20,003 bases of DNA, from positions 1 to 20,003 of the IMG/VR virus record IMGVR_UViG_3300025652_000740; one strand, given 5' to 3'. The notes beneath the pieces were generated by a model that worked only from the letters and a program-made list of their open reading frames with translations, was not told the DNA's origin and made no database searches. The DNA is from a virus. The translations under genes were made by a program, and so were the position numbers. Positions 1 to 20,003 of the stretch are shown piece by piece. Each line of letters starts with the position of its first letter. The first letter of the stretch is position 1.

Positions 1-3000
1 AGTTCTCAACTTCTCAGATTGACTTTCATACAGACAATCTCTATAAAGAAGTAAAGTCTTTCTATAAAGTAAATAAACCACGTACAAAAGAACTCCTTGC
101 GGAGATTACTGGGCCGGGCATGAAGGGTACCCCCTCTCTTTCTGGTAATATCAAGAACATCTCTTCTGGTGAGCTTGTGCGTATTCAGTCTAAGGTAAAA
201 GCCGGGCTTGCCGAAGGGCGTCCCCCCAAAGCTATTATCTCTGACGTTCTAAAGACAACAAAACTTACTGAGCATCAAGCCTCTTCAATTACCCGAACAG
301 CTATCACTGCTACACAAACAGCAGCGCTGAACAAGGTAATTCAAGATAACAAGGATGTTATTAAGGGTTACATGTTTACTGCTATCTTGGATAGCCGGAC
401 AAGCCCAATCTGTACCCATCACAACGGCAAGGTCTATGACATAACCGACAAACGGTTTATGCCACCCTTGCACTGGCGTTGTCGTTCCAGCTTGGTTCCT
501 GTTCTAAAGAGCAAGGAAGAACTCGCTGCGACTGACTCCGCTCGTATCAAGAAGACAGCAGTCAAGAAGCTTGATGAGTCCAAGGTTAACGGGGTCTCCC
601 CTAAGCGTGAGTCTTTCGGCGATTGGCTCAAGCGACAATCCTTGGCAGTTCAATCTAAGATGCTTGGTGGAGAAGATAAGGCTAACCTCTTTCGGACTGG
701 CCAACTAACTGCGGACCAGTTTGTAACGCCTAAAGGCGCTGTTCTTTCTATTCAAGCTCTGCGGGCTCGTGCTGCAAGTATTACTTCAGTGTATCGTCCT
801 CGTCAGGTAGTAAAAGATACTAACCTTCAAGTTAACGTAAAGAACCCAAATAGTTTGCTTAACAATCCAAAACACCAAGCTGACCTTGAAAGGCTCTTTA
901 TTTCTGATGCAGATGACTGGAACTCTTCCTTTGCTCTCACAGACTTTAAAGGCACTAGCCTGGTCGGTAAACAAGCCTCCCGTAGGCGTATTGGTAATGA
1001 GTTTGATGAGCGTAACTTTGTAACTGACCGTGTAACAGGCGAGGTTCGGAATACCCTCCTCTATGAAGCAGACTATAACCTCTTTCAGGAACGTCTAGAC
1101 TTTATGAAGGGTGCTAAAGACCTAACAAGAGAACAAAAAGACTTTATTGAAGGGCTAGCTATTAAGCTCACCGACAAAGTCTCTGTAAACCAGCAAATTG
1201 TTACTGTAGAAAACCTACGGGTAAACTTCCAACGATTTAATACAACAAAAGAACCTTGGGGTGACTTCACTTCAGTTGTTCGTTCAGAGAACCGCTTTGC
1301 TGTTCAGAACGTATCCCGACTCCTTGATGTCCGCTCTCGTAAGCGGGCTGAACTCTTCGGTGGGTTTGTAAGCACAGGGGATTCCCCTAAAATGCAAATC
1401 ATGGGGAAGTACTACAAGGTTTCAGAATTGGTTGATGACCAGCTAGCTACACAGCGGTTTATTGATAACTGGCGGGCTAACGAGGGTACCCAGCTAGCTA
1501 AGAAGGTTTACTACTCTGGTCGAGCTCCAATGAACGCTTACACACAAGCCATTATCAGGAAATACCCTGACAAGGCTAAGCTTATTGATGAGATGCTTAA
1601 CAATGTTGTCCCCTTCCGTAAGCAGTATAAAGCTTATGTTAAGTGGAAGAACAAACCGCCAAGTGATGCTTGGATTACAAAACAAATTTCTAAGATGCGG
1701 GAAGGCGTACGGCAGGTTTATGACCTTGAATGGCTCTTTGTAAAGCAAAAACCAACTTCAAAGGCCATGGATGATAAAGTACTCCATACCACAACTAAGG
1801 CTCTTAAGCTAGTAGCTTCAGGTCGTGCAACAGACTACGATGCACTTTCCATTAACATTGGTAAGATGTATCATAAAGACTTGGGCGACTTAAACCCTTT
1901 AGCAACTTACACACTACAAGACTACCATAAAGAAGGTGCAAAGATTCTTGAGTTCATGAAAGAACAGAACCTCATTCAGGTTAGCTTCCGTGGGAAGACT
2001 CGCCGAGGTGTCTGGGATGTGGATACAGGTCGCTCCTCTGGGGGTTGGGCTGATACTATTACTCGTGAAGTTAAAGTAATTGATAAGACTCTTTTGAAGC
2101 TTCAAGAAGCAGAACTTAAGTCTATTTATGCAAGACGCTTTGGTGTAGTTAATGGCCGTGATAGGCTGTATGTAAAAGCCGGTAACAAAGAGTTCTTTGA
2201 TGCCCGTGGGAACAAAACAGGTATCCCAATTATCTCTGCGGATAAGTACCCTGACTATGACCCTAAACAGATTGACACAGAGATGGCTCAGATGATGAAC
2301 CACGTTACTTCTGTTAAGTATGAAGTAGATAACGAGTTCTTTGACTTTATGGACGACGTTGTACGCTTTAGAGACCCTCGTGGTAACACTAAGTACTACG
2401 ATGAGCTCAACGAGTTCCGTCATGATATCATTAATCGGGGTGAACAAGGCTATGGCCTAATGTCCACTGCGAAGTATCACAGACAACGAGGTAAACCCTT
2501 CACTACCCACGTTTACATTGACTCCCGTGGTCGTGTTTACCATCGTGGTTACTTAACCCCGACAGGTGGTGAGATGGTTCGGCCCTTCCTGAACTCTAGT
2601 AAAGCTAGTGCCGTGAATGCAGGCGCAGTAAGAGAACTCCGTATTCAGATTGGCGCCATGATTGGTCCCGGTACCGAGGCTCTAACTCAGGCGGGTCGTC
2701 TGGAAATCCTTAAAAGGAACGAGTCTCGGATTCTTGAGTTAGCATCTTTGCTACAGTCTAAAACACAACGTGACCGGCGTATTCGGGAGTTCTTAGAACA
2801 TCCCCTTATCAAGGGTCTCGAAGGTTCTGAAGTTCCCAAGATGGCTCGCTTTGTTCTTGAATATAAGCGCATCCATGACCACGTTGGTGGTGACTTCAGT
2901 AATACTAGACTGCTAGGCACTTACAAGACTAAGCTAATGATTGAAAATGACGCCTCTTCTAGTGGTGCTCAGATTATTAGTTTGTCAACAGGTGACCGCC

Positions 3001-3166
3001 CGATTGCTGAGGCTTCTAACGTTGTTGCTACAACAAAGAAGAACCGCCTCTATGACCTTGTCGCTCAGGATACAGTTAATGACCCTGAGTTCCTGAAGAT
3101 TCCAGCGCTACGTAACGCCGGTTTGACTTGGGAAGATTTGGCCAAGGGCGCTAAAGCTCAGAACAT
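1..3166 (+). CDS. Minor head protein / T7-type RNA polymerase fusion, exon 1 (5' partial)
   Basis: The frame is open from base 3 at the left edge, so the Met at 120 is internal and the true start lies outside the window. Counting from that Met, residues about 50-130 match the SPP1 gp7/Mu F minor head family: an R-T-x-x-T-x-x-N-type helix (59-71), a Cys/His cluster (D91, C98, H100, H101) and PPLHWRCR (115-122). Residues about 780-1015 are the start of a single-subunit RNA polymerase palm: DSRGRVY (801-807, as T7 DWRGRVY), the motif A sequence DASSSG with catalytic D944 (as T7 D537), and motif B Lys K1012 (as T7 K631). Residues 150-780 are unassigned and probably hold the polymerase N-terminal domain. 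The exon ends at U3166, inside a Met codon completed by exon 2. Unspliced reading adds 18 intron-encoded residues and stops at 3221, cutting the polymerase in motif B. The family matches are by eye; the motif order makes the polymerase call strong. Confidence 0.88.
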
Positions 3167-3302
3167 AAATGTTATTGTGTTCTTTAAACCCCGTGAATTG
3201 CTGGAAACTCTTACCGCGTAATGGCGAAGACAATCAGCAGCGAAGCTTAGATATGTAAATATCTTTGAACGTTCAACGACTATCCGAAAGGAGTACATCT
3301 AA

Positions 3303-3452
3303 ATGTCAGATGGAAGCGCGGGGAACCTGCCGTTATATTACGAAGCCAAAAACCCTTCTGTTGTTAAAACACTTAAACAATGGAAAAGGTTGGGCTACAG
3401 CAACCCTGAATGGGCTGTAGTTATTGGTAAGTTAAAGCAGGTTATGATATAG
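3303..3452 (+). CDS. Short open frame inside intron 1 P8-region insertion (49 aa, doubtful)
   Basis: This frame starts at ATG 3303, nine bases after AAGGAG (3288-3293), and ends in a TAG that is part of the P7 3' strand. The predicted peptide is basic and mixed in composition (for example PLYYEAKNP and KQWKRLGYSNPEW), with no recognised domain. Intron 2 keeps similar bases on both sides of this spot but lacks about 100 bases in between, so the frame lies in an insertion specific to intron 1. It could be a small gene, a remnant of an older intron gene or chance. Translation through P7 would compete with intron folding, and the SD-like run AAAGGAG is partly conserved as structural sequence in intron 2. 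These points argue for caution. Confidence 0.3.
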   Translation: MSDGSAGNLPLYYEAKNPSVVKTLKQWKRLGYSNPEWAVVIGKLKQVMI

Positions 3453-3497
3453 TCTTATCTGCATAGAAATATGTAGCAGTTAATATAGGAAGAAAAC

Positions 3498-4070
3498 ATG
3501 AACTATAAAAAACTTTATGAAAACTTGTTGAAAAAACATGGCTCTGAAGTTAAACCAGAATACTACGCTGAAAGACATCATATAATTCCAAGGTCACTTG
3601 GGGGTAGTGATGAAAGTAGTAATCTAACTTATCTATCACCAAAAGCTCATTTTGTTTCACATCTTCTGCTATGGAAGATACACAGGTGTCCTGCTACGGC
3701 AAGGGCTTATTTCATGATGGCGTGTACCGGAGAGTCTTATGACAGGTCTCTTAGGGTAACAAGCGCCCAATTTGAAAAAGCTAGATTGGCTTACTCAGAA
3801 CATGCTTCTGAATTTGCTAAGAGCCAATGGGCTACCGATTATGATAAGATGAGAGATAGTGTAATGTTCATGTTCAATGATGAAAGCCACCCTATGTATA
3901 TGAAAGGGAAGACTGGCTTTGACCACCCAAGAGGTAAACCCGTAAAAACACCTCTTGGAGAATTCGGGTCTGTTAGAGAGGCAGGGAGAGCGCACGGTAT
4001 TGCACACAATATCATATCTCGATACTGTAAATCTAACAAACATTCTGAATTCTACTATATTGACGGGTAA
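3498..4070 (+). CDS. HNH homing endonuclease in intron 1
   Basis: A 190-residue protein encoded within group I intron 1, downstream of the P7 core. The HNH motif is clear: RHHIIPRSLGG at residues 26-36 with H27/H28, then N42 in SSNLTYLS, then H51 and H55 in KAHFVSHLLLW. The C-terminal third (about 140-190) contains GKTGFDHPRGKPV followed by a helix-turn-helix-like stretch (SVREAGRAHGI, then IISRYCKSN). This resembles the NUMOD DNA-recognition modules common in phage intron endonucleases. The start is ATG 3498, with AGGAAGA seven bases upstream. The expected role is to cut the intronless allele of the polymerase gene so that the intron is copied in. The motif residues are intact, so it is probably active. 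The exact cut site cannot be read from sequence. Confidence 0.9.
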   Translation: MNYKKLYENLLKKHGSEVKPEYYAERHHIIPRSLGGSDESSNLTYLSPKAHFVSHLLLWKIHRCPATARAYFMMACTGESYDRSLRVTSAQFEKARLAYSEHASEFAKSQWATDYDKMRDSVMFMFNDESHPMYMKGKTGFDHPRGKPVKTPLGEFGSVREAGRAHGIAHNIISRYCKSNKHSEFYYIDG

Positions 4071-4097: not shown

Positions 4098-5082
4098 GGT
4101 AACATTCTATGGTGCTGGTGATGCTACAAAGACAGCTAACATTGCTAACAAACTTTCAGGAATCCTTAATAAAAAGGGTTACAACGCTATAACAAAAGAT
4201 AACCTTAACGACATTCTTCGTGTTGTTGATGGTAAGATAAAGGTTGCCGACAAGCTCGGCGCCTCTGTGACAGTTGGCTCACTAAAAGGCTTCCGGTCTG
4301 AGTTAATTGAAATGGTTAATGGTAATACGCCGGTTGGACGACAGTTGCTACTTGCGGCTAGAGAACTCCACCCGGATGTTGAAGACTTTGTCATTAAGCT
4401 ATCCAACGCTCGTGTTGGGCTAGTGGGGCCAAAGGACTTCGAAGAGATATCAAGGATTATGTCTAAACATCTTTCTGCTCGTGCTCCTGTTACAGATGAG
4501 TTTATTAACTTCTGGAAAGCAGCAGCCAAGACTTACGTCAAGGAGACAGAGAAAGTAGATATTCCTTGGGTGACGTTTGATGGTAAGGTTATGATGCAAA
4601 GGTATCGTGGCAAAAATCAAACTCGCATTGACTTTACTGACCCAGTTACTGGGCGTAAAATTGCAAACATCTACGAGGGCACTATTGACGACGGTAAACT
4701 CCGTGGTAAACATGCCTTTGCCGACGCCTCTATCGGGCTAGGTGTTAACGGAAACCACAGTAACGATGCTGTGATTGTGCGCAGGTTCCATCTTTGGGGA
4801 CGGAAGAACGGTGTGGATACTGGAACCATCCATGACGCTTTTTTCACAAACCTAGCTGACGCACAGAAAGCTAAAGATGCCTTGAGAACCATCTATGCAG
4901 ATGCTCTTGAAGGTGACACTATTCGGAAGACTCTCAATGCCTGGCGCAAAGAAGGTCTTTCAAAGACAGCGTATGACAAGCTCATCGCTGAAGCTAAACG
5001 ACGTGGTCTTATTGACCCGCCAAACAAACTAACTCGCAAAGACATACTTGAACCTATTAGGGACGGGTATGACTGGTACGGT
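4098..5082 (+). CDS. RNA polymerase fusion, exon 2 (motif B to C-terminus)
   Basis: This exon supplies residues 1016-1344 (numbered from the internal Met at 120) of the fused polymerase. It opens with the rest of motif B: M-V-T-F-Y-G, with Y1020/G1021 matching T7 Y639/G640. Later come PWVTFDGKVMMQRY and NQTRIDF, which align with T7 HWVTPDG...WQEY and IQTRL and flank the promoter-specificity hairpin. GNHSND follows (H1236, as T7 VHSQD, H784). GTIHDAF is motif C, with catalytic D1262 (T7 D812). The end, NKLTRKDILEPI...DWYG, resembles the T7 tail NLNLRDILESDFAFA. In unspliced RNA this frame has no good start of its own: the first in-frame ATG is at 4312 and GTG 4267 lacks a ribosome site, so splicing is needed. 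It runs into intron 2 at 5083; unspliced, it would stop at 5109. Confidence 0.9.
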
Positions 5083-5762
5083 AGACTTTGCCGTATGAAA
5101 ATCCTGTGAATTCGGTGGAACTCTCTCTGAGACAATACCGAGCGAAGCCTCGTAAGAGGAACGTGTAGAGACTATCCAGAAATGGAGTACACTCAAGTGA
5201 GTGGAAGCGCAGGGTGGTGAAAGCCAAAGATATAGTCCGAACTGCATGGCGACATGTAGCAGCGAAAGCGGGTGAGAATTAACGACTCTCATTGAACATA
5301 TGATAGGTCCATAAAGGAAAATAGATGAGCAAAAGAGTTAAGAACACAGACCAAAAATGGGTAGTTTATGCCCACTATGACCATGAAGAAATGGTATACT
5401 TAGGTAGCGGTCAAGTTCATAGAGCTTTTCAATTCATTAAGCGTGATAAAAAACATTACGATTGGATGGTTGAAAAGTCATTAAAAAATCTTACAGCGAA
5501 CTTTATAAGACTTCTGTTTGTAACAGATGACTACGAAGAAGCGAGATTTGTAGAAGGTCGGCTGATAGCTGAACACTCTACAAGATTTAACAAAAGTTTG
5601 AATAAGGTGACATTTGAAGACCTTAACTATGCTAAAGAAAAAATGAGCAACGGTAAGTCTCTCAGAAGCTGTGCTTCAGAGATTGGTGTCGCACATAATA
5701 ACCTTCGGGTTTTGTTGAAACTGCCTTATTGTAATAGCGTTTACAACATAAAAACTTAACCG
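5083..5762 (+). ncRNA. Group I intron 2 (IA-like), inserted two codons before the stop
   Basis: A 680-base group I intron. P1 pairs the exon end UACGGU (5077-5082) with GCCGUA (5090-5095), with a U-G pair at the splice site. P10 pairs exon 3 AGUCU (5763-5767) with AGACU (5083-5087). P4 uses CGGU/ACCG (about 5113 and 5140). P7 pairs GACUAU (5170-5175) with AUAGUC (5232-5237). The core reads much like classic T-even-type introns (GAUAUAGUCC, then GCAUGGCGACAUG). The last intron base is G5762. Splicing gives ...D-W-Y-G-S-L-stop. The core is visibly related to intron 1: the bases around 5171-5230 share ACTATCC, GGAGTACA, TGGAAGCGC and AAGCCAAA blocks with 3279-3350. The GIY-YIG gene lies 3' of P7. 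Confidence 0.9.
5325..5759 (+). CDS. Divergent GIY-YIG homing endonuclease in intron 2
   Basis: A 144-residue protein nested in intron 2, ending three bases before the intron end. The N-terminal half fits a divergent GIY-YIG fold: VVY (13-15) and VYLG (24-27) replace the two name motifs. GSGxxxRA (27-34) carries the conserved Arg (R33), H44 and W47 follow, and DDYEEARFVEGRLI (68-81) carries the candidate catalytic Glu E77. Residues 96-131 (TFEDLNYAKEKM, then KSLRSCASEIGV) look like a DNA-binding helix-turn-helix tail. AAAGGAAA lies upstream of ATG 5325. The expected role is to drive intron 2 into intronless copies of the polymerase gene. The GIY-YIG match is weaker than the HNH match in intron 1, so a homology search is the deciding test. 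Confidence 0.7.
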   Translation: MSKRVKNTDQKWVVYAHYDHEEMVYLGSGQVHRAFQFIKRDKKHYDWMVEKSLKNLTANFIRLLFVTDDYEEARFVEGRLIAEHSTRFNKSLNKVTFEDLNYAKEKMSNGKSLRSCASEIGVAHNNLRVLLKLPYCNSVYNIKT

Positions 5763-6529: not shown

Positions 6530-7648
6530 ATGGCTATTACAAACACTGACTTCCAGAACATTGCTCTGGCAATCTCCGCTTACTCCGACGAAGCTTACAC
6601 AACTGCAAAGAAGCTGAACGGCACAGGTATCGTTGCTTCCGACCAGAAAATCGATGCTTCTGGCGAAAACTTTTACGGCCAGTTCCGTTGGTACAAGCCA
6701 CTGAGCGCAACAGTAAACGTTGCTTCGCTCTCCAACGCTGCTAACGGTACTTACACAGCTATCGCAACTGACTACGCTAACTTCATTAAGACTCTCCGCA
6801 CATTCGGTGCCGAGCAGGTCAACATGCAGGAAGTCGTATCCCGTCAGGATGGTCTTGCTAAGATTGCTCGTGACTTCGCTGAAGTCCGTGCACAGGACGA
6901 GCACGACGCTCTCCTCTCCGTTCTTAAGGGTGTAGCTCACTCTGAAGTTGCTTTGGGCGACCTTGGCGGCACAGGCAACGGTGGTCTCATCGACTTCGAC
7001 ACAGACACAGATGCTGCTGCAACTGGTTTCTTCGTAGACGTTAACGCTCTGGGTCTCCACGGCGCTGCTGCTACTGGTGCTGGCGACGCTCGTAAACTGT
7101 TCGACTCCACCGCTATCGGTGCTGCTCGTGGTGAGCGTCTGTTCCGTTCTATCGGTGCTGCGTTCAAAGACTATGAGCCAGACTTCATGTACCTCGTAAC
7201 TTCACCAGAAGTAATGGCAGAAATGCGTGCTGCTAACTTGGTAGACGACACAATGGTTACCGATGGCAACCTTGAGTTCTCCACAATCTTCGGTGGTAAG
7301 TTCCGTCTCGTAATGACCCGTGCTAACCAGATGATTGCTGGTGCAGCTGCTGGCGACTTGAATACTCAGTCCACAAAAGCGACTTTCGTCATCAAGCCAG
7401 GCTCGGTTGCAGCTCAATCCCTGGGCCTCCCAACTCCTGTTGAAGTAGACCGTTCTGCGGCTTCCTACACAGGTGGTGGTTCCACAAACGTATGGTACCG
7501 CTGGGGCTACGTCATGCACCCAATGGGTTATGACTGGGCTGGCGCTACTACAGCCTTCGCAACTAACGCTAACTTCATCTCGGGCGCTTCTTGGGTTCGT
7601 AAGATGGACAGCTTGAACTTGGGCGTTCTCCCAATCTTCCACGCTTAA
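6530..7648 (+). CDS. Major capsid protein
   Basis: A 372-residue protein between scaffold and head-tail connectors, with AAAGGAAAT upstream of ATG 6530. Codon use is strongly biased towards C-ending, well-translated codons (GCT, GAC, AAC, TTC), more so than its neighbours, as expected for the most abundant virion protein. Visible stretches such as DFAEVRAQDEHDALLSVLKG, YLVTSPEVMAEMRAANL and FGGKFRLVMTRANQM look like the E-loop/P-domain and beta layout of HK97-fold capsid proteins. The SPEVMAEMR to FGG..VV pattern is common in this group. There is no obvious N-terminal cleavage site or delta domain, in keeping with a separate scaffold. It forms the icosahedral shell. Confidence 0.88.
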   Translation: MAITNTDFQNIALAISAYSDEAYTTAKKLNGTGIVASDQKIDASGENFYGQFRWYKPLSATVNVASLSNAANGTYTAIATDYANFIKTLRTFGAEQVNMQEVVSRQDGLAKIARDFAEVRAQDEHDALLSVLKGVAHSEVALGDLGGTGNGGLIDFDTDTDAAATGFFVDVNALGLHGAAATGAGDARKLFDSTAIGAARGERLFRSIGAAFKDYEPDFMYLVTSPEVMAEMRAANLVDDTMVTDGNLEFSTIFGGKFRLVMTRANQMIAGAAAGDLNTQSTKATFVIKPGSVAAQSLGLPTPVEVDRSAASYTGGGSTNVWYRWGYVMHPMGYDWAGATTAFATNANFISGASWVRKMDSLNLGVLPIFHA

Positions 7649-7668
7649 TTTTTTGAAAGGAGGAACTA

Positions 7669-8178
7669 ATGGCACTTGTACTCAATACAAACAGCTATGT
7701 GGAATTAGCAGACGCTGATGAGTACTTTGACACTCGCATTGATAGTGCCGCTTGGTTCGACGCATCAGACGAAGTCAAAGAGCAGGCCTTGGTTACAGCT
7801 ACACAGCTGATTGATAACCATGCTTGGATTGGCGCTGCTGTTAGTTCCTCCCAAGCTTTAGCGTGGCCTCGTAAGAACGCTGTATACTGGGACTCACGTC
7901 TTGGTATGCAGGTTTCCGTTGAGGAAGACGCTGTACCAAACTTGGTTAAGGTGGCTGTTTACGAACAGTCACTCCACTTGGTTAACAACGAAGATTTGTT
8001 AGCAGGTACAACTCAGACATTCGAAAGCATCTCTGTTGGGTCTATCAGCTTGTCTGATTCCAATAGCGACGTAACAAGAACTTCCATTAAACCTTCAGTC
8101 GCCATGAAGCCTATCCGACCGCTTATTCGTAGGGGGTCCGCAGGTGGAATGGGGTCTGCTTGGTGGAGGTCTAACTAA
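7669..8178 (+). CDS. Head-tail adaptor, DnaT-like family
   Basis: A 169-residue protein after the major capsid gene, with GAAAGGAGG upstream of ATG 7669. The pattern NSYVELADADEYFDTR (7-22), KEQALVTATQLID (37-49) and QALAWPRKNAVYW (64-76) is typical of a phage family often labelled DnaT-like ssDNA-binding protein. That label is misleading here: in this gene position the family behaves as the head-tail connector (adaptor) that docks under the portal ring. The helical N-terminal half fits gp6/gp15-type adaptors. Its stop overlaps the next start by one base (TAATG), so the connector genes are translationally coupled. Confidence 0.72.
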   Translation: MALVLNTNSYVELADADEYFDTRIDSAAWFDASDEVKEQALVTATQLIDNHAWIGAAVSSSQALAWPRKNAVYWDSRLGMQVSVEEDAVPNLVKVAVYEQSLHLVNNEDLLAGTTQTFESISVGSISLSDSNSDVTRTSIKPSVAMKPIRPLIRRGSAGGMGSAWWRSN

Positions 8179-8513
8179 TGTCCTTAAAGGCTAAGATTAA
8201 GGCGGCTGTCAACAAGGCTTTTGCTGCTGTTGATGACCTCAAGGTCTCAGCCTCTCTATCTTCTAAGAAGGTATCTGAATACGACTTTAGTCAACGTGGT
8301 GTTGTTGCCTCAAACTCCCGGCAGGTTGTAGATGTGATTATCACAAATACACAAAAACCCAGCGGAGAGGGGTTCACCACGACTGCTCTTATAAAGAGCG
8401 GTATTGACCTTAGCGTCTATGATACTCTTACTGTAGGTTCTGTTGTGTATAACATAGTAGACTACACCGATGACAACTTCGTCATTACAGCTATAATTGT
8501 AAGGGAGAAGTAA
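8178..8513 (+). CDS. Head closure / connector protein (putative)
   Basis: A 111-residue protein overlapping the preceding adaptor gene at TAATG. It has a short helical start (SLKAKIKAAVNKAFAAVDDL), then a beta-rich body ending in YDTLTVGSVVYNIVDYTDDNFVITAIIVRE. That closing pattern is common in head-closure (stopper) and related neck proteins, where a small beta barrel follows the adaptor. No confident family name can be given. The assignment comes mainly from its place between the adaptor and the tail terminator. It would join the head and tail by plugging the connector channel. Confidence 0.55.
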   Translation: MSLKAKIKAAVNKAFAAVDDLKVSASLSSKKVSEYDFSQRGVVASNSRQVVDVIITNTQKPSGEGFTTTALIKSGIDLSVYDTLTVGSVVYNIVDYTDDNFVITAIIVREK

Positions 8514-8514
8514 C

Positions 8515-8919
8515 ATGTTCGATTTGGTGTTAGAAGATATAGAAGCTGTATTTGCTTCTGCCACATGGCAGTCAAACTCTATCCCAACTTTCCCAGAGAA
8601 CTATCAGGGTAATCTGGGGAACAACCTAAGCGAGTATGTTCGTATGAATGTACTACCAAGTTCAAGCAAGAATTATGCTTATGATGCAAGGAAACAACTT
8701 GATGGCCTTTTGGCTGTTAAAATCTTTGTTAAGGCGGGTAACGGTCAAGGTCGCACTATGGAAATAGCCGACGTACTTAATACCTTGTTTGAGAATACTA
8801 CACTGACCAATGGTACAAAGCTTGGGACGTCTTTCCTTCAAATTGAAGGGTTAGACCCCGCAAACAAGTCGCTTTATAGCGCATCATACTTAATACCATT
8901 TACAAAATTTGGAGAATAA
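8515..8919 (+). CDS. Tail terminator / tail completion protein (putative)
   Basis: A 134-residue protein with AAGGGAGAAG just before ATG 8515, directly before the major tail protein. It opens with a helix (FDLVLEDIEAVFAS) and continues WQSNSIPTFPENY, then a mixed body with VKIFVKAGNGQGRTMEIADVLNTLFEN and a closing strand (YSASYLIPFTKFGE). The helix-strand-helix layout, the G-x-G-R-x-x-x-x-x-D-x-[IL] pattern and the length match tail terminator proteins (lambda U-like). These cap the finished tail tube and bind the head-closure protein. The family call is by pattern and position, not close identity. Confidence 0.62.
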   Translation: MFDLVLEDIEAVFASATWQSNSIPTFPENYQGNLGNNLSEYVRMNVLPSSSKNYAYDARKQLDGLLAVKIFVKAGNGQGRTMEIADVLNTLFENTTLTNGTKLGTSFLQIEGLDPANKSLYSASYLIPFTKFGE

Positions 8920-8921
8920 AA

Positions 8922-9476
8922 ATGGCTCACATTTCATCTTTAGGCGCTGGCGTCTATACTTACCTTGACCTTTTCAAGGGCACTCTTGGAACCTATGCTA
9001 CTGCGGGTGATGCGGCTGCAGAATTCGTTGGTACTGTACCCGGCACTGCTGAGGCAGACCACGTTCGTATGCCTTCTGTTCGTGAATTCCCTTCCGTAGG
9101 TACTCCTGCTAACATCGTTAACGTCCCTGTGTTTGGTCAAGCGACCTCCTCGCAGGTTCAGGGTCAGGCCGATGCGCCTTCCTTGGAAGTTACAGTTAAC
9201 TACGTTGCAGACGACATGGCAACTGCAATTCACCCGCTGATTGGTCAGCCAGCACTCTTCCGCTTCATGATGGTTAACAAAGCTATCACTGCTGACGAAG
9301 CTGCTGAAGACTCTGCTGGTTGGACTTCTTGGGCCAGTGGCGGTGGCGAGAACACTTGCTTCTACTTCGTTGGTAAAATCGAAGCGATTCTCGTGAATCC
9401 TTCCTTGACCGATGCGACTACTGCGACTGTTACACTGTCCGCACAGTCCGACTTCCTTGGCCCACAAACCAACTAA
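8922..9476 (+). CDS. Major tail (tube) protein
   Basis: A 184-residue protein in the usual place between the tail terminator and the tail chaperones. TTGGAGAATA precedes ATG 8922. It is beta-rich and has codon use as biased as the capsid gene (TTC, GCT, GAC), pointing to high expression. Segments such as REFPSVGTPANIVNVPVFGQ, LEVTVNYVADD and FVGKIEAILVNPSLTDATTATVTLSAQSDF look like the sandwich of siphovirus tube proteins: an early substrate-like loop, then a final strand ending the domain. It would polymerise as rings round the tape measure. No C-terminal Ig-like decoration domain is present. Confidence 0.82.
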   Translation: MAHISSLGAGVYTYLDLFKGTLGTYATAGDAAAEFVGTVPGTAEADHVRMPSVREFPSVGTPANIVNVPVFGQATSSQVQGQADAPSLEVTVNYVADDMATAIHPLIGQPALFRFMMVNKAITADEAAEDSAGWTSWASGGGENTCFYFVGKIEAILVNPSLTDATTATVTLSAQSDFLGPQTN

Positions 9477-9491
9477 GTTGTTTACAATCTT

Positions 9492-9516
9492 GGAGGCTCC
9501 CCTAGCGGGGGTCTCC
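9492..9516 (+). terminator. Hairpin after the major tail gene, no U-tract
   Basis: The bases GGAGGCTCCCC, TAGC and GGGGGTCTCC form a strong stem-loop of about nine or ten pairs, including wobble pairs, sixteen bases after the major tail stop. No run of T follows, so it is not a normal intrinsic terminator. It could protect the 3' end of the highly expressed capsid/tail mRNA or act as a partial terminator that lowers downstream expression. Confidence 0.55.
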
Positions 9517-9534
9517 TGCCAGTTGGAGAAAAGT

Positions 9535-9771
9535 ATGAATAATCAATTTAGTAAAAGCTTTGTGATGCGTACGACATTTCGTCATATGCGCCGCAGTGTA
9601 GACATTAGTATTCGCAAGTCGTTTGAGCGCTTTAAGGATTTTGACCAGGATTCAGATGCCGGTCGTGAGATTATGGAAACCCTTTCAAATCTTCATACAA
9701 TCCGTAAGATGCTTGATGACTTTCAGAAGCATAACAACGAACTATTCACAGACAAAGAACGTATTAATTAA
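9535..9771 (+). CDS. Hypothetical small tail-module protein (78 aa)
   Basis: The chosen start is ATG 9535, which has TTGGAGAAA at the right distance. The frame is open upstream to 9412, but that part overlaps the major tail gene and the hairpin. The 78-residue product is mostly helical and charged (RHMRRSVDISIRKSFERFKDF, IMETLSNLHTIRKMLDDFQKH), with no membrane segment and no family that I recognise. It sits between the major tail protein and the chaperone pair. A role in tail assembly is possible from position alone. Confidence 0.7.
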   Translation: MNNQFSKSFVMRTTFRHMRRSVDISIRKSFERFKDFDQDSDAGREIMETLSNLHTIRKMLDDFQKHNNELFTDKERIN

Positions 9772-17133: not shown

Positions 17134-17163
17134 GGCTCATCCCTTCGGGGGTGGGCCTTTTTT
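17134..17163 (+). terminator. Strong intrinsic terminator after the tape measure gene
   Basis: GGCTCATCCC and GGGGTGGGCC form a ten-pair stem (two wobble pairs) closed by a TTCG tetraloop and followed by six T. It is a textbook rho-independent terminator that ends the structural unit, 27 bases after the tape measure stop. Confidence 0.93.
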
Positions 17164-17186
17164 ATCAAAAATAGGACTAAAAAAAG

Positions 17187-17220
17187 TGAGAAAATCAAGG
17201 CATCTATAGTAGAGAAATCT
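17187..17220 (+). promoter_or_regulatory. Promoter-like element, copy 1
   Basis: A 34-base element, TGAGAAAATC-AAG-GCATCTATA-G-TAGAGAAATCT, lies between the tape measure terminator and the first small gene, with its end 22 bases before ATG 17243. It differs from copy 2 (19829-19862) at only four bases. TATAGT could be a sigma-70 -10 box, but no good -35 hexamer lies 17 bases upstream. The CTATA-[GA]-T-AGAGA core resembles the initiation end of T7-type promoters, so the fused phage polymerase is a candidate reader. Confidence 0.68.
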
Positions 17221-17242
17221 AAAAACCTAAAGGAGACGAACA

Positions 17243-17437
17243 ATGACTAAACTCGAAGAACTAAAGGTTGCTGAGGCTGCTGCTCGTAAGGCTGCTTATG
17301 CTTACGCTGCTGAGGCTGCTGGTGCTTATGCTGCTTATGCTACTTATGATGCTTATGCTGTGGCTGCTCGTAAGATTGCTGATGCTTATGCTGATGCTTA
17401 TGCTGCTGAACTGAAACGTTTACAAGGAGACAAATAA
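17243..17437 (+). CDS. Ala/Tyr-rich low-complexity protein 1 (64 aa)
   Basis: The first gene after promoter copy 1, with AAAGGAGACGAAC before ATG 17243. It reads MTKLEELKVAEAAARKAAY, then a run of Ala with regular Tyr and Asp, and ends ADAYAAELKRLQGDK. The LEELK start and AEL.RLQG end are shared with the next gene. The middle is GCT- and TAT-rich DNA encoding a single long helix with Tyr about every three to four residues. Similar short LEELKAA...AA..AEL proteins occur in other phages and have no agreed function as far as I know. The stop and the next start overlap (TAATG). Confidence 0.75.
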   Translation: MTKLEELKVAEAAARKAAYAYAAEAAGAYAAYATYDAYAVAARKIADAYADAYAAELKRLQGDK

Positions 17438-17739
17438 TGACAAGTAAACTCGAAGAACTAAAAGCGGCTGAGGCTGCTGCTTATGCTACTGAGGCTGCTG
17501 CTTATGCTGCTTATGCTGCTGCTCGTGATGCTGCTTATGCTGCTGCTCGTGATGCTGCTTATGATGATGCTGCTGCTGCTTATGCTGCTACTGAGGCTAA
17601 TTGTGATGCTACTGAGGCTGCTGCTTATGCTGCTTATGCTGCTGCTCGTGATGCTGCTTATGCTTATGCTGCTGAGGCTGCTGCTGCTTATGATGCTGCT
17701 TATGCTGCTGAACTAAGGCGTTTACAAGGAGGCAAATAA
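17437..17739 (+). CDS. Ala/Tyr-rich low-complexity protein 2 (100 aa)
   Basis: A tandem relative of the preceding gene, with the same start (TSKLEELKAAEAAA) and end (AELRRLQGGK). The middle is built of helical units with seven-residue phasing (AARDAAYA, AARDAAYD). A 123-base period repeats exactly for 59 bases at 17483-17541 and 17606-17664, so it has grown by slippage or unequal exchange. A lone Cys lies in TEANCDATE. ACAAGGAGACAAAT precedes ATG 17437. Function is unknown. A single-helix scaffold or surface-binding role is conceivable but not shown. Confidence 0.75.
   Translation: MTSKLEELKAAEAAAYATEAAAYAAYAAARDAAYAAARDAAYDDAAAAYAATEANCDATEAAAYAAYAAARDAAYAYAAEAAAAYDAAYAAELRRLQGGK
17483..17664 (+). 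repeat. 59-base direct repeat in the Ala/Tyr gene (123-base period)
   Basis: Bases 17483-17541 are repeated exactly at 17606-17664. Both copies lie in frame in the second Ala/Tyr gene and are made mainly of GCT, TAT, GAT and CGT codons. The GCT-rich tract makes replication slippage likely, so copy number may vary between isolates. Confidence 0.85.
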
Positions 17740-17813
17740 TGGAACTTCTGCTACTCATCGGCTTCGGACTCATCGTAACTCTCGCTTGCTTTGACCACCA
17801 CATCTTCAAATAA
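17739..17813 (+). CDS. Small membrane peptide (24 aa)
   Basis: It starts at ATG 17739, overlapping the preceding stop (TAATG), with ACAAGGAGGCAAAT as ribosome site. The peptide MELLLLIGFGLIVTLACFDHH plus IFK is one hydrophobic segment with a short polar end. It could be a real single-span membrane peptide. Such small genes are usual in this region, but at 24 residues the call rests on the strong ribosome site and coupling rather than on family. Confidence 0.5.
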   Translation: MELLLLIGFGLIVTLACFDHHIFK

Positions 17814-17836
17814 CCCAACCTGAAAAGGAGACTACC

Positions 17837-17941
17837 ATGTTTAATACTATCCTGACCATCATGGTCGTAATGTTTGTAATCCGTGTCGTGTTTAATGTTG
17901 CAGTTTTCGCTGCTTTGATGCTTTCCAGCAAGAAAGCCTAA
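17837..17941 (+). CDS. Small membrane peptide (34 aa)
   Basis: ATG 17837 follows the repeated cassette CTGAAAAGGAGACTACC. The product begins MFNTILTIMVVMFVIRVVFN and continues through a second hydrophobic stretch to LSSKKA, giving one long membrane helix with a basic end. No family is recognised. Its neighbours and ribosome site are those of other genes in this operon. Small membrane peptides near a cell wall hydrolase could include holin or spanin parts, but nothing specific supports that. Confidence 0.6.
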   Translation: MFNTILTIMVVMFVIRVVFNVAVFAALMLSSKKA

Positions 17942-17959
17942 CCTGAAAAGGAGACCACC

Positions 17960-18286
17960 ATGACTATCAAGTACTTCAGAGGCTGCACAATGAGTGAAGC
18001 CATCGACCTCAAAGTTGCTATCGACGAGGGCAAGTTAAATGCTCGTCGCTCAACCACATTCTGGACTGACTCGGAAGAGAAAGCCAAGATGTATGCACGT
18101 CGTCACCCACAGGGTGCTGTCGTGGAAGTGGAGATGGATGAGAACCCTCGTGGTATCCAGAACTACTTCTCGGTTGGTGCTGGTGACAGTGCCGCCACTA
18201 CTATCCGTCAGTGGGAACTTCCTACTGCCTACTTCACCGGAACCTTCAGCTGCTACGTTGAAGAGACAACAATCCACTCAGTATAA
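17960..18286 (+). CDS. Unknown protein, weak ADP-ribosyltransferase-like pattern (108 aa)
   Basis: ATG 17960 follows CTGAAAAGGAGACCACC. The protein opens KYFRGCTMSEA, then has RRSTTFWTDSEEKAKMYARRHPQGAVVEVEMDE (about 29-61, split here by description rather than domain), and ends in a beta-like segment with two Cys near the start and end. The order R-G near the start, then [FY]-W-T-D-S-x-E-x-A-x-x-Y-A, then a hydrophobic strand resembles the R and S-T-S-like blocks of the ADP-ribosyltransferase fold. No certain catalytic Glu motif (E-x-E) is placed, although VEVEMDE and EETT are candidates. It is best called unknown; the enzyme idea is a hypothesis. Confidence 0.72.
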   Translation: MTIKYFRGCTMSEAIDLKVAIDEGKLNARRSTTFWTDSEEKAKMYARRHPQGAVVEVEMDENPRGIQNYFSVGAGDSAATTIRQWELPTAYFTGTFSCYVEETTIHSV

Positions 18287-18313
18287 AGTAACCCAACACA
18301 GGAGGAGACCACA

Positions 18314-18538
18314 ATGTCTATCTTTCTTGCACTACTTATAGGCTTCGGCCTGCGGCTCTTGATAATCAGTGTCAAGTCTGTACCATTTAAACGTATCCCC
18401 CTTTTGCCAATACTGGTTGCCATTGGGTTGGCTCTCTTTGAGAGACACCTCGGTGGTATTGCCTTTATAATTGGGGCGTTAACTATCGATATACTAGACC
18501 ACTCTAGCGACTTTTCAGCAGGAGAAAAAGATGCTTAA
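18314..18538 (+). CDS. Small membrane protein, holin candidate (74 aa)
   Basis: ATG 18314 follows CAGGAGGAGACCACA. The protein has hydrophobic segments at about 1-19, 28-42 and 46-60, separated by short basic linkers (SVKSVPFKR; FERH), and a soluble acidic tail (LDHSSDFSAGEKDA). Size and two-to-three-span layout fit a holin, and a SleB-type hydrolase lies 0.9 kb downstream. There is no family match by eye, so holin is inference. Its end overlaps the next gene by eight bases. Confidence 0.65.
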   Translation: MSIFLALLIGFGLRLLIISVKSVPFKRIPLLPILVAIGLALFERHLGGIAFIIGALTIDILDHSSDFSAGEKDA

Positions 18539-18680
18539 TAAGGTTATCAGCTTAATGAAACACGAAAGGCTCTGGAAGTTTAAAGACTTCGAGGACTGTA
18601 CTTCTGACCGTAACACAAAACAACTCAACAGTATTCTAAAAGAGATACTGGAAGAAACCCAAAAGGAGACCACAAAATGA
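18531..18680 (+). CDS. Hypothetical small protein (49 aa)
   Basis: It starts at ATG 18531 inside the end of the previous gene, with GCAGGAGAAAA just upstream. It ends at TGA 18680, overlapping the next ATG as ATGA. The product is charged and helical (LNKVISLMKHERLWKFKDFED, then QLNSILKEILEE). No family is recognised. Overlaps on both sides and the good ribosome site support a real, translationally coupled gene. Confidence 0.6.
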   Translation: MLNKVISLMKHERLWKFKDFEDCTSDRNTKQLNSILKEILEETQKETTK

Positions 18681-19096
18681 CCTATGTAACAAAGTGTGCA
18701 GACGACCAAGTAATCCGTAATCGGGAGTACTTCAACCGGGCTATCATCTTTGAAGGCTGTTCCTCCGTTGGAGGCTTCACTGACATTGATGCTGTTTACG
18801 ATGTAAAAGGAAAAGCTCTTGTTCTTATTGAAGTAAAGCGCAAGGGTAGCCCAATCACCACTGGCCAAAGAATCCTCTTTGACCGACTTGTAATGTGGTG
18901 CCAGAAGCCTGTTTACGCTATCACTGCTTGGGAAGACCACGACGGAGATATCATTTTAAAAGATGCTATCGTCAAAGAAATTCGTGTAAAAGGTGAAAAC
19001 GGAAAAGCAGTAGTTAAACCCTCTACGGGAAATCTAACTGTCCGTAAAGTCATTGAATACATCGAGAAAAAACATGGAGCTGCTAAATGTGTATAA
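18677..19096 (+). CDS. PD-(D/E)XK nuclease-like protein (139 aa)
   Basis: ATG 18677 follows CAAAAGGAGACCACAAA and overlaps the previous stop. The core reads GGFTDIDAVYDVKGKALVLIEVKRKG: D36/D38, then a hydrophobic strand and E52-V-K54. That is the D...E-x-K arrangement of restriction-endonuclease-fold nucleases. TTGQRILFDRLVMW (61-74) adds the usual helix with Gln after the catalytic strand, and PVYAITAW follows as a closing strand. The length suits a small, stand-alone phage nuclease. It may act in phage DNA processing or host DNA breakdown. The exact subfamily is not clear. The last bases overlap the next gene by ten. Confidence 0.72.
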   Translation: MTYVTKCADDQVIRNREYFNRAIIFEGCSSVGGFTDIDAVYDVKGKALVLIEVKRKGSPITTGQRILFDRLVMWCQKPVYAITAWEDHDGDIILKDAIVKEIRVKGENGKAVVKPSTGNLTVRKVIEYIEKKHGAAKCV

Positions 19097-19284
19097 CCCG
19101 CTACGAGCTTGAACTACTACGATTAAACCAAGGAATCTCTACACAATACCTAAAAGACCGAAACGAGGGGCTTGAAGAAAAAATCAAGTACAGTGATGCC
19201 TATGGGTCTTGCTCAGGCTATCGTGACGAGATTCAACTGAACAGCTCACTCCTCTACCTCCGCGACAAATATGGAGTACTGTAA
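19087..19284 (+). CDS. Hypothetical protein (65 aa)
   Basis: ATG 19087 lies inside the end of the nuclease-like gene, with ATGGAGC about eight bases upstream. The product MCITRYELELLRLNQGISTQ continues through a charged helical region to LLYLRDKYGVL. No membrane segment or known motif is seen. Overlap with the upstream gene and one-base spacing to the next suggest coupled translation. Confidence 0.6.
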   Translation: MCITRYELELLRLNQGISTQYLKDRNEGLEEKIKYSDAYGSCSGYRDEIQLNSSLLYLRDKYGVL

Positions 19285-19425
19285 ATGTATAACCCAAAAG
19301 ACTTCGCCCTCTATGAACTCTGGATGTACGGTGCTGGAAAGTACCACCAAGAGCTCACTAACGTAAACCCGTTCTTCGTCATAGATGGAGAATACCAAAC
19401 CACTGGAATGGAGATACTACAATGA
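19285..19425 (+). CDS. Hypothetical small protein (46 aa)
   Basis: ATG 19285 comes directly after the preceding stop (TAAATG), with ATGGAGTACTG upstream. The product is Tyr/Phe-rich (MYNPKDFALYELWMYGAGKY, then NVNPFFVIDGEYQTTG). It ends at TGA 19425, overlapping the hydrolase start by four bases. No family is recognised. The good ribosome site and the tight fit between two genes support it. Confidence 0.58.
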   Translation: MYNPKDFALYELWMYGAGKYHQELTNVNPFFVIDGEYQTTGMEILQ

Positions 19426-19826
19426 TTATGACAGCAACAATGTGCCTAGCGCTTAACGTCTACTTCGAAGCACGTCAGGAGTCCCTTGCGGGGCAGCTGG
19501 CTGTAGCCCAGGTGACCCTTAACCGGGTAACAGACGACCGCTATCCTGATACCGTCTGTGATGTTGTCTGGGAGGACAAACAGTTCTCTTGGACACATGA
19601 TGGCAAACCCGACGACCCAACGCGTATGGACTACCTTGACGTCCAGGCTTGGCACACTGTTCGTAAGCTTGCGGAAAGTGTTATAAACGACAAAAGCCTT
19701 CTGCCGGGGATTACTGCTACACACTATCACGCAGTAGAAGTTAACCCTTTCTGGGCAAGCCACTACGAGTTTGACGGACAAATTGGCGGACATGTGTTTT
19801 ATACTAACGAAACACCCTACAAATAA
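19422..19826 (+). CDS. SleB-type cell wall hydrolase (endolysin candidate)
   Basis: A 134-residue protein matching the Hydrolase_2/SleB family. It has CLALNVYFEARQES (8-21) with candidate catalytic Glu E16, GQLAVAQVTLNRV (24-36), YPDTVCDVVWEDKQFSW (41-57), then THYHA (100-104), PFWA (109-112) and IGGHVFY (121-127). SleB-type enzymes are lytic transglycosylases that cut the glycan strand of peptidoglycan, and phages use them for host lysis. No secretion signal is clear: the hydrophobic start is the first fold helix, so export would need a holin. The start is ATG 19422, with ATGGAGATA upstream; ATG 19428 is an alternative. The 3' end precedes promoter copy 2. Confidence 0.9.
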   Translation: MIMTATMCLALNVYFEARQESLAGQLAVAQVTLNRVTDDRYPDTVCDVVWEDKQFSWTHDGKPDDPTRMDYLDVQAWHTVRKLAESVINDKSLLPGITATHYHAVEVNPFWASHYEFDGQIGGHVFYTNETPYK

Positions 19827-19828
19827 AC

Positions 19829-19862
19829 TGAGAAAATCTTCGCATCTATAATAGAGAAATCT
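19829..19862 (+). promoter_or_regulatory. Promoter-like element, copy 2
   Basis: TGAGAAAATC-TTC-GCATCTATA-A-TAGAGAAATCT starts two bases after the hydrolase stop and ends 24 bases before ATG 19887. It shares 30 of 34 bases with copy 1. TATAAT is a perfect -10 hexamer, but the -35 position (TAAACT) is poor. The high conservation across the whole element suggests a longer recognition site than a normal -10/-35 pair. Confidence 0.68.
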
Positions 19863-19886: not shown

Positions 19887-20003
19887 ATGGAACTCATCCC
19901 CCTCATCGCAGTATACACTGCAGTATACACTTTCTTTGGCGTACTCATCAACGATATGGCTAAGAAGCGCAACCGCCACCAAGCAGCTTGGGTTATCCTC
20001 AGC
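19887..20003 (+). CDS. Small membrane protein, partial at right edge
   Basis: ATG 19887 follows CAAAGGAGACCACA, the same cassette as its neighbours, and is the first gene after promoter copy 2. The open frame runs off the window after 39 residues: a hydrophobic span with AVYTAVYTFFGVL, then a basic stretch (AKKRNRHQ). The VYTAVYT part comes from a perfect 12-base tandem duplication (19908-19931). The full length is unknown. Confidence 0.65.
   Translation, partial: MELIPLIAVYTAVYTFFGVLINDMAKKRNRHQAAWVILS

Follow-up and report, generated by a model that had tools for sequence, protein, structure and literature searches.

Putative early promoters of a Naomviridae-like roseophage and their probable reading by an RNA polymerase fused to a head protein

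Introduction

In phage N4 a virion RNA polymerase (RNAP) acts first and a T7-family RNAP, likewise encoded by the phage, comes second, and the early promoters are DNA hairpins centred at -11 (PMC4496689); Iyer et al. (2017, PMC5512222) found N4-like virion RNAP modules exclusively in N4-like phages and prophages. T4-like phages possess PeSL cassettes, in which a promoter and a stem-loop are repeated between variable early genes, the early promoters being host-type (cited in PMC4503421). In the DNA of the roseophages DSS3_VP1 and DSS3_PM1 (Naomviridae), deoxyuridine (dU) replaces thymidine (dT; PMC12697855). The present analysis concerns a stretch of 20,003 nucleotides of viral DNA (IMG/VR record IMGVR_UViG_3300025652_000740, positions 1 to 20,003; the whole stretch is hereafter the window) and, within it, two 34-base elements at 17187-17220 and 19829-19862. 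The window represents part of a phage genome akin to those of DSS3_VP1 and DSS3_PM1: its RNAP fused to a MuF-type minor head protein (MuF-RNAP) is 60% and its coat protein (MCP) 58% identical to those of DSS3_VP1, the tape measure and hydrolase genes follow in the same order, and by these syntenic core genes it belongs to the Naomviridae.

Judging from the sequence, the elements are almost certainly promoters, and very likely of a phage T7 type rather than of the host. There is a good probability that they are early promoters read by the MuF-RNAP of a Naomviridae-like roseophage. We also consider likely, with somewhat less assurance, an undescribed cascade in which a head-carried MuF-RNAP would read invariant double-stranded early promoters, leading to a second polymerase (RNAP2) whose promoter and specificity loop diversify together, in a phage family that has dU-DNA in its type isolates at least.

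Results

The two copies read TGAGAAAATC-AAG-GCATCTATA-G-TAGAGAAATCT (17187-17220) and TGAGAAAATC-TTC-GCATCTATA-A-TAGAGAAATCT (19829-19862) and are mismatched at 4 of 34 positions, as in the preliminary description, made from the sequence alone, which had counted 30 shared bases of 34. Its statement that the window holds no further copy also stood, since a scan allowing up to three mismatches returned these two sites only, and none in 100 shuffles. A chance repeat was rejected on the same shuffles and on the lack of matches of the position weight matrix (PWM; see below) in reversed sequences. When searched alone with three mismatches, the 12-bp core CTATARTAGAGA occurred 34 times in the window against 31 expected, which is the chance level; the signal therefore resides in the entire element, and the core was rejected as a functional unit. 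Both copies lie upstream of gene starts, as had been noted, with ATG codons at 17243 and 19888, each accompanied by an AAAGGAG Shine-Dalgarno sequence. Taking the purine after CTATA as +1, conservation among relatives begins at -28 (17181 and 19823 in the window), hence the 34-bp bounds are slightly narrow, and the downstream portion of the 34 bp corresponds to a leader stem-loop. A direct repeat (GAGAAAATC / GAGAAATC) and a palindrome (TCTATAATAGA) within the element are present in the window's clade and not conserved in relatives.

The element belongs to a widespread class. An exact 21-mer search retrieved 11 viral contigs, while the pattern GAGAAA-N6-GCATCTATAAT was found in 109 stretches of viral contigs, often with 2-5 copies per contig; with a 5-nt instead of a 6-nt spacer only 9 matches were obtained, each single. 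Four viral matches (L074, L111, L136 and L145) were set aside as chance, being located within genes and devoid of flanking consensus. In 84,980 bacterial and archaeal genomes, GTGAGAAA-N6-GCATCTATAAT had a single match, in a metagenome-assembled genome of Tannerella, about the number expected by chance on our own estimate, so that the element does not behave as a host promoter class. The consensus of 87 unique sites is AAAAAGTGAGAAAAWYAASGCATCTATAATGAT, spanning -28 to about +5; positions specified by the search pattern are invariant there of necessity. Scanning with the PWM located 48 sites, spread over 30 contigs and always in the same orientation as the adjacent genes, vs. none in reversed sequences. 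A ribosome-binding site (RBS) and an open reading frame (ORF) followed within 160 nt after 83 of 89 sites (24% for random positions), with a median leader of 44 nt. All carriers typed so far are Naomviridae-like roseophages related to DSS3_VP1; three copies each were found in the scanned genomes of DSS3_VP1 (MN602266; at 35818, 36265 and 67802) and DSS3_PM1 (MN602267), whose database records annotate no such element and leave the polymerase half of the fusion unmarked. Two relatives (G013 and G033) had no copy, and both contigs end inside the tape-measure gene. The class is apparently undescribed: a literature search that included motif strings retrieved no paper on these promoters, and an earlier mention in the family-founding paper (Curr Biol 2021) is possible.

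Strict internal spacing and coding-strand copies followed by leader, RBS and ORF leave next to no likelihood to a non-promoter repeat serving recombination or gene shuffling in the accessory region, in the manner of the T4-like PeSL cassettes, even if several copies flank variable small genes and such promoter and stem-loop cassettes have been tied to shuffling. Shuffling may be a by-product.

Two groups of copies depart from the usual layout. In L080, L089, L090, L106, L113 and L135 the copies directly behind the tape-measure gene are altered to GGAG at -12 to -9, and an ORF starting MKKWNKLFKLKNGQLYW has its ATG at +1 of the element; this may reflect a leaderless start or a Shine-Dalgarno sequence for read-through transcripts. 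In the clade of L001, L005, L006 and L009-L011 an element is located away from the usual early interval, in the stretch separating the helicase gene from the metallophosphoesterase gene. It immediately follows what resembles the 3' end of a tRNA, and its upstream block (TAATAACGAGAA) is weaker.

A probable start site is suggested by an inverted repeat placed immediately after the core. A stem of at least 6 bp begins exactly at +2 in 46 of 86 unique leaders, while such stems occur in 0-2 leaders at offsets beyond +3; the counts at +1 and +3 represent overlapping registers of the +2 stems. The paired positions covary with pairing kept (T-A or A-T at +5; A-T, C-G or G-C at +6; C-G, T-A, G-C or A-T at +7), as in GATAC-AATA-GTATC, GATATA-ACAA-TATATC, GAAC-GAAA-GTTC and, in the window, TAGA-GAAA-TCTA. 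When arms were exchanged at random between 11 distinct stems, pairing averaged 78% rather than 100%, with 95% as the highest value in 2000 trials. For the stem to form in the RNA, transcription would have to begin at +2 or earlier, and the geometry suggests a T7-type start at CTATA|R; a sigma-70 start, expected near +9, does not fit. About a fifth of the copies lack any stem of 4 bp or more, and the stem-loop is thus a promoter adjunct rather than the recognition signal. This bears on the possibility that a DNA hairpin, extruded from the inverted repeat, constitutes the signal recognized by a virion polymerase. The virion RNAP of N4 operates in this way (PMC4496689) and most elements include the repeat, and yet stem and loop vary in sequence and size, a fraction of copies is without them, and it is the unpaired upstream block that is invariant. 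We consider an N4-type promoter extremely improbable; as a candidate it was rejected, because the repeat lies downstream of CTATA, is variable and is missing in some copies.

Tested as sigma-70 promoters, with -35 and -10 hexamers 16-18 nt apart, the elements offered TATAAT and no -35 match; the sigma-70 scan detected neither of them, in agreement with the poor -35 region noted in the preliminary description. They share with T7-type promoters a short conserved block that ends in a presumed initiating purine and is repeated on the gene strand, and the same phage group encodes single-subunit RNAPs as possible cognate enzymes (two of them, the choice of reader being indirect). That the elements are phage promoters of T7 type, a kind of which their core had been said to be reminiscent, is strongly supported. 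Host genomes lack the element, the altered spacer removes most matches, the geometry of the start site agrees, and the copies are conserved between phages in a consistent position and strand.

The host sigma-70 RNAP might nonetheless start here, with TATAAT as -10 and the conserved GTGAGAAAA block bound by a host or phage activator replacing the -35 sequence, as at the T4 MotA middle promoters. The block ends about 12 nt before TATAAT, similar to the place of a MotA box, the hexamer is perfect in most copies, and many phages use the host polymerase early. However, a start near +9 would remove the 5' arm of the covarying leader stem, the GCATC preceding the hexamer is as fixed as the hexamer itself (partly by construction of the search, although it is invariant in PWM matches too), no -35 match exists and the element is absent from host genomes. 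We judge this explanation unlikely.

The candidate reading enzyme is encoded at the left end of the window. Its first exon (3-3166, +; end placed from the relatives' protein) comprises the MuF head domain (PF04233) and the N-terminal part of the RNAP with catalytic motif A, and is 60% identical to DSS3VP1_00028. The second (4098-5109, +; start deduced) carries motifs B and C and the specificity-loop region, with a PF00940 match at 4501-4953 and 63% identity to DSS3_VP1; its true end is somewhat before 5109, at the second of two group I introns (3157-3476 and 5039-5259) that interrupt the gene. In an intact relative (L025) a single protein combines the head-morphogenesis domain (PHROG 241, 4.4e-43) with the RNAP domain (PHROG 414, 3.4e-20) behind it. 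Across 11 relatives none of the catalytic motifs A, B and C varies, and a fold search with the RNAP part returned T7 and mitochondrial RNAPs (E 6e-15); the AlphaFold model of this part had low confidence (pLDDT 61) and served for fold class only. Among the carrier contigs mapped, every one that spans the locus has the fusion. Given the MuF head-morphogenesis domain, the RNAP is likely carried in the virion.

Intron 1 lies inside catalytic motif B, between ...AQN and VTFYGAG, and an HNH ORF (3498-4070) is located behind it. In the distant EBPR siphovirus 1 (L208, 19674-25047) the MuF-RNAP is split into gp47, the HNH gene gp48 and gp49, with TFYGAGE just after the HNH gene; the split is apparently at the same motif B site, likely a parallel or shared intron insertion.

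A second polymerase, RNAP2, is a canonical T7-type enzyme (PF00940, about 1e-82) present in DSS3_VP1, DSS3_PM1 and all sufficiently long relatives. In G037 (18361-21277) and G057 (6721-9637) it occupies two open frames, probably owing to another intron or homing insertion. The same phages have a second repeated motif, which is TAGGKTRCGTTAAAGAGGGG in DSS3_VP1 and TAGGTGACGTTAAAGA, ATACCTGACGTTAAAGAA, ATACCTGACCTTTAAGAA, AAATACTGCCGACTAATGA or AAATACTTCGCCCTAATGA in others, and which precedes exonuclease, helicase, terminase, PhoH and portal genes. In DSS3_VP1 (L046/L047) it is located at 2243, 2334, 6581, 7409, 19238, 19327, 29397, 45927, 46552, 55099 and 59197; it was not found in the window, which does not include the regions where it would be expected. 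The motif changes together with the RNAP2 specificity loop: loops ..QIQVW or ..QLQVW pair with GACGTT, ..RIQVW or ..NIQVW with GACCTT, ..TLSIW with GCCGACTAAT and ..HISVW with TCGCCCTAAT, the loop having been placed by our reading of the alignment and the independent changes being few. In the same phages both the window's element class and the corresponding loop region of the MuF-RNAP are constant. The second class therefore probably comprises the promoters of RNAP2, as far as these pairings indicate.

The two classes occupy different places. Sites of the window's class fall between the tape-measure end and the RNAP2 start in 30 of 33 mapped cases, an interval amounting to 5-21% of the contigs, vs. 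4 of 72 second-class sites (Fisher p = 1e-18, a guide only, as second-class patterns were picked for each contig once it had been inspected, and the contigs are not independent, being related or overlapping). Both promoter places of the window, after the tape-measure terminator and at the hydrolase end, hold copies in relatives, the latter in G017 and G029.

Along the window, with the terminator, both promoters and their leaders, the first small gene, the hydrolase gene and the last gene on the plus strand, an intrinsic terminator with a 10-pair stem and a TTTTTT tail (17134-17157) stands behind the tape-measure gene and insulates element 1. Putative early promoter 1 (AAAAAGTGAGAAAATCAAGGCATCTATA, -28 to -1, 17181-17208; PWM score 47.7, reversed-sequence control 0, logo of 87 sites) would start transcription at the G at 17209, as suggested by the T7-type geometry and the relatives' stem-loop from +2, and is followed by the predicted leader stem-loop UAGA-GAAA-UCUA (17210-17221), which has covarying counterparts in relatives. 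The first small gene (17243-17437, 64 aa, RBS AAAGGAG) is Ala/Tyr-rich and of low complexity, and a second of the same kind (17437-17739) adjoins it; after a common MTKLEELK start both products consist almost purely of Ala/Tyr/Asp/Glu repeats (GCT-TAT-GAT codons), and several further instances of this gene start are present in G017 (reversed contig, around 29.4-30 kb). A 139-aa protein (18677-19096) contains a stretch, GFTDIDAVYD...LVLIEVKRKG, resembling a PD-(D/E)XK nuclease core, and had no match in Pfam or PHROG. A cell-wall hydrolase gene (19422-19826; PF07486, 2.1e-22) lies between the units of both promoters. Its stop codon is overlapped by putative early promoter 2 (ATAAACTGAGAAAATCTTCGCATCTATA, -28 to -1, 19823-19850; PWM score 39.7), which on the same grounds would start at the A at 19851; its leader stem-loop, AGA-GAAA-UCU (19853-19862), folds with 3 bp and is weaker. 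The gene that follows (ATG at 19888, AAAGGAG upstream) runs off the window (19888-20003).

Discussion

With RNAP2 assigned to the second class, the first class would have to be served before RNAP2 exists, either by the virion fusion or by the host. The fusion is favoured by the start geometry, by the missing -35 sequence, by the length of the conserved footprint and by the lack of the element in host genomes. RNAP2 itself, or both phage polymerases, could be imagined to read the elements, for instance in an auto-activation loop, given the likeness of the elements to T7 promoters and their place ahead of the RNAP2 gene; this we find very unlikely, because the RNAP2 motif differs per phage type together with the specificity loop while the window's element is the same in all, and because RNAP2 would not yet be present when infection starts.

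Several observations weigh against early reading by the MuF-RNAP. The footprint conserved to -28 exceeds the 23 bp of T7, most copies contain a perfect TATAAT hexamer, and a host polymerase guided by a phage factor may instead be at work. A few copies stand outside the early interval (VP1 67802, G037 38571, G057 34219 and, in G001 and G004-G011, those on the tRNA side), and EBPR siphovirus 1, which has a MuF-RNAP and is too distant to decide the matter, showed no element (best PWM score -2.9). Finally, the fused polymerase, already proposed as reader in the preliminary description, is the best-supported assignment but was reached by exclusion alone, and the second T7-type RNAP of the phage group had not been foreseen there. 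The proposed connection with the accessory region has to be taken more broadly. The corresponding region of relatives runs into the RNAP2 gene, for which reason the elements probably start the early programme.

In the mechanism we propose, the MuF-RNAP would be packaged and enter the cell with the DNA. Its C-terminal single-subunit RNAP would recognize double-stranded DNA of sequence AAAAAGTGAGAAAAWYAASGCATCTATA, followed by A or G at +1, and, as the geometry suggests, initiate at this purine. The 5' stem-loop of the transcript, a structure seen from covariation, would probably protect the RNA. Early and accessory genes and RNAP2 would be made next, an order suggested by gene position, and RNAP2 would then act at T7-like promoters of its own, to which the covariation of motif and loop points, and transcribe the genes for replication and structure. 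The dU in the DNA of DSS3_VP1 and DSS3_PM1 could be among the reasons for bypassing the host polymerase. If true, both halves of a two-polymerase programme would be readable from sequence alone; the marine phage family concerned is distributed globally, with DSS3_VP1 and DSS3_PM1 as isolates. An exact candidate promoter, start site and enzyme pair are thereby proposed, possibly a new orthogonal polymerase-promoter tool, and the second class would offer a natural series of RNAP2-promoter specificity changes and of polymerase-promoter co-evolution.

The early region of DSS3_VP1 and DSS3_PM1 is the nearest counterpart, with the same gene order, MuF-RNAP, RNAP2 and hydrolase, and differs in leader sequence. 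The promoters of the T7-type RNAPs (T7, SP6, K11 and relatives) are alike in CTATA followed by a purine, the presumed start in the window's class, in being short and double-stranded and in having a phage RNAP of the same fold. In the window's class the conserved block is longer, reaching -28 and including GTGAGAAAA, +1 is mostly A, a leader stem-loop is built in, and the candidate enzyme is a head-protein fusion. The PeSL cassettes are a looser parallel, since the window's class is not of host type and its stem-loop would come first in the transcript, at the 5' end. The cascade of N4 is similar in having a candidate virion RNAP first and early genes that include a second T7-family RNAP; N4 differs in its hairpin promoters, while recognition here is apparently of double-stranded sequence, in its 3500-aa ejection protein, compared with a MuF fusion of about 1460 aa, and in that the second RNAP here seems to serve structural genes too. 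A MuF-fused virion RNAP acting on an ordinary double-stranded promoter would, if true, represent a second route to start infection without the host polymerase.

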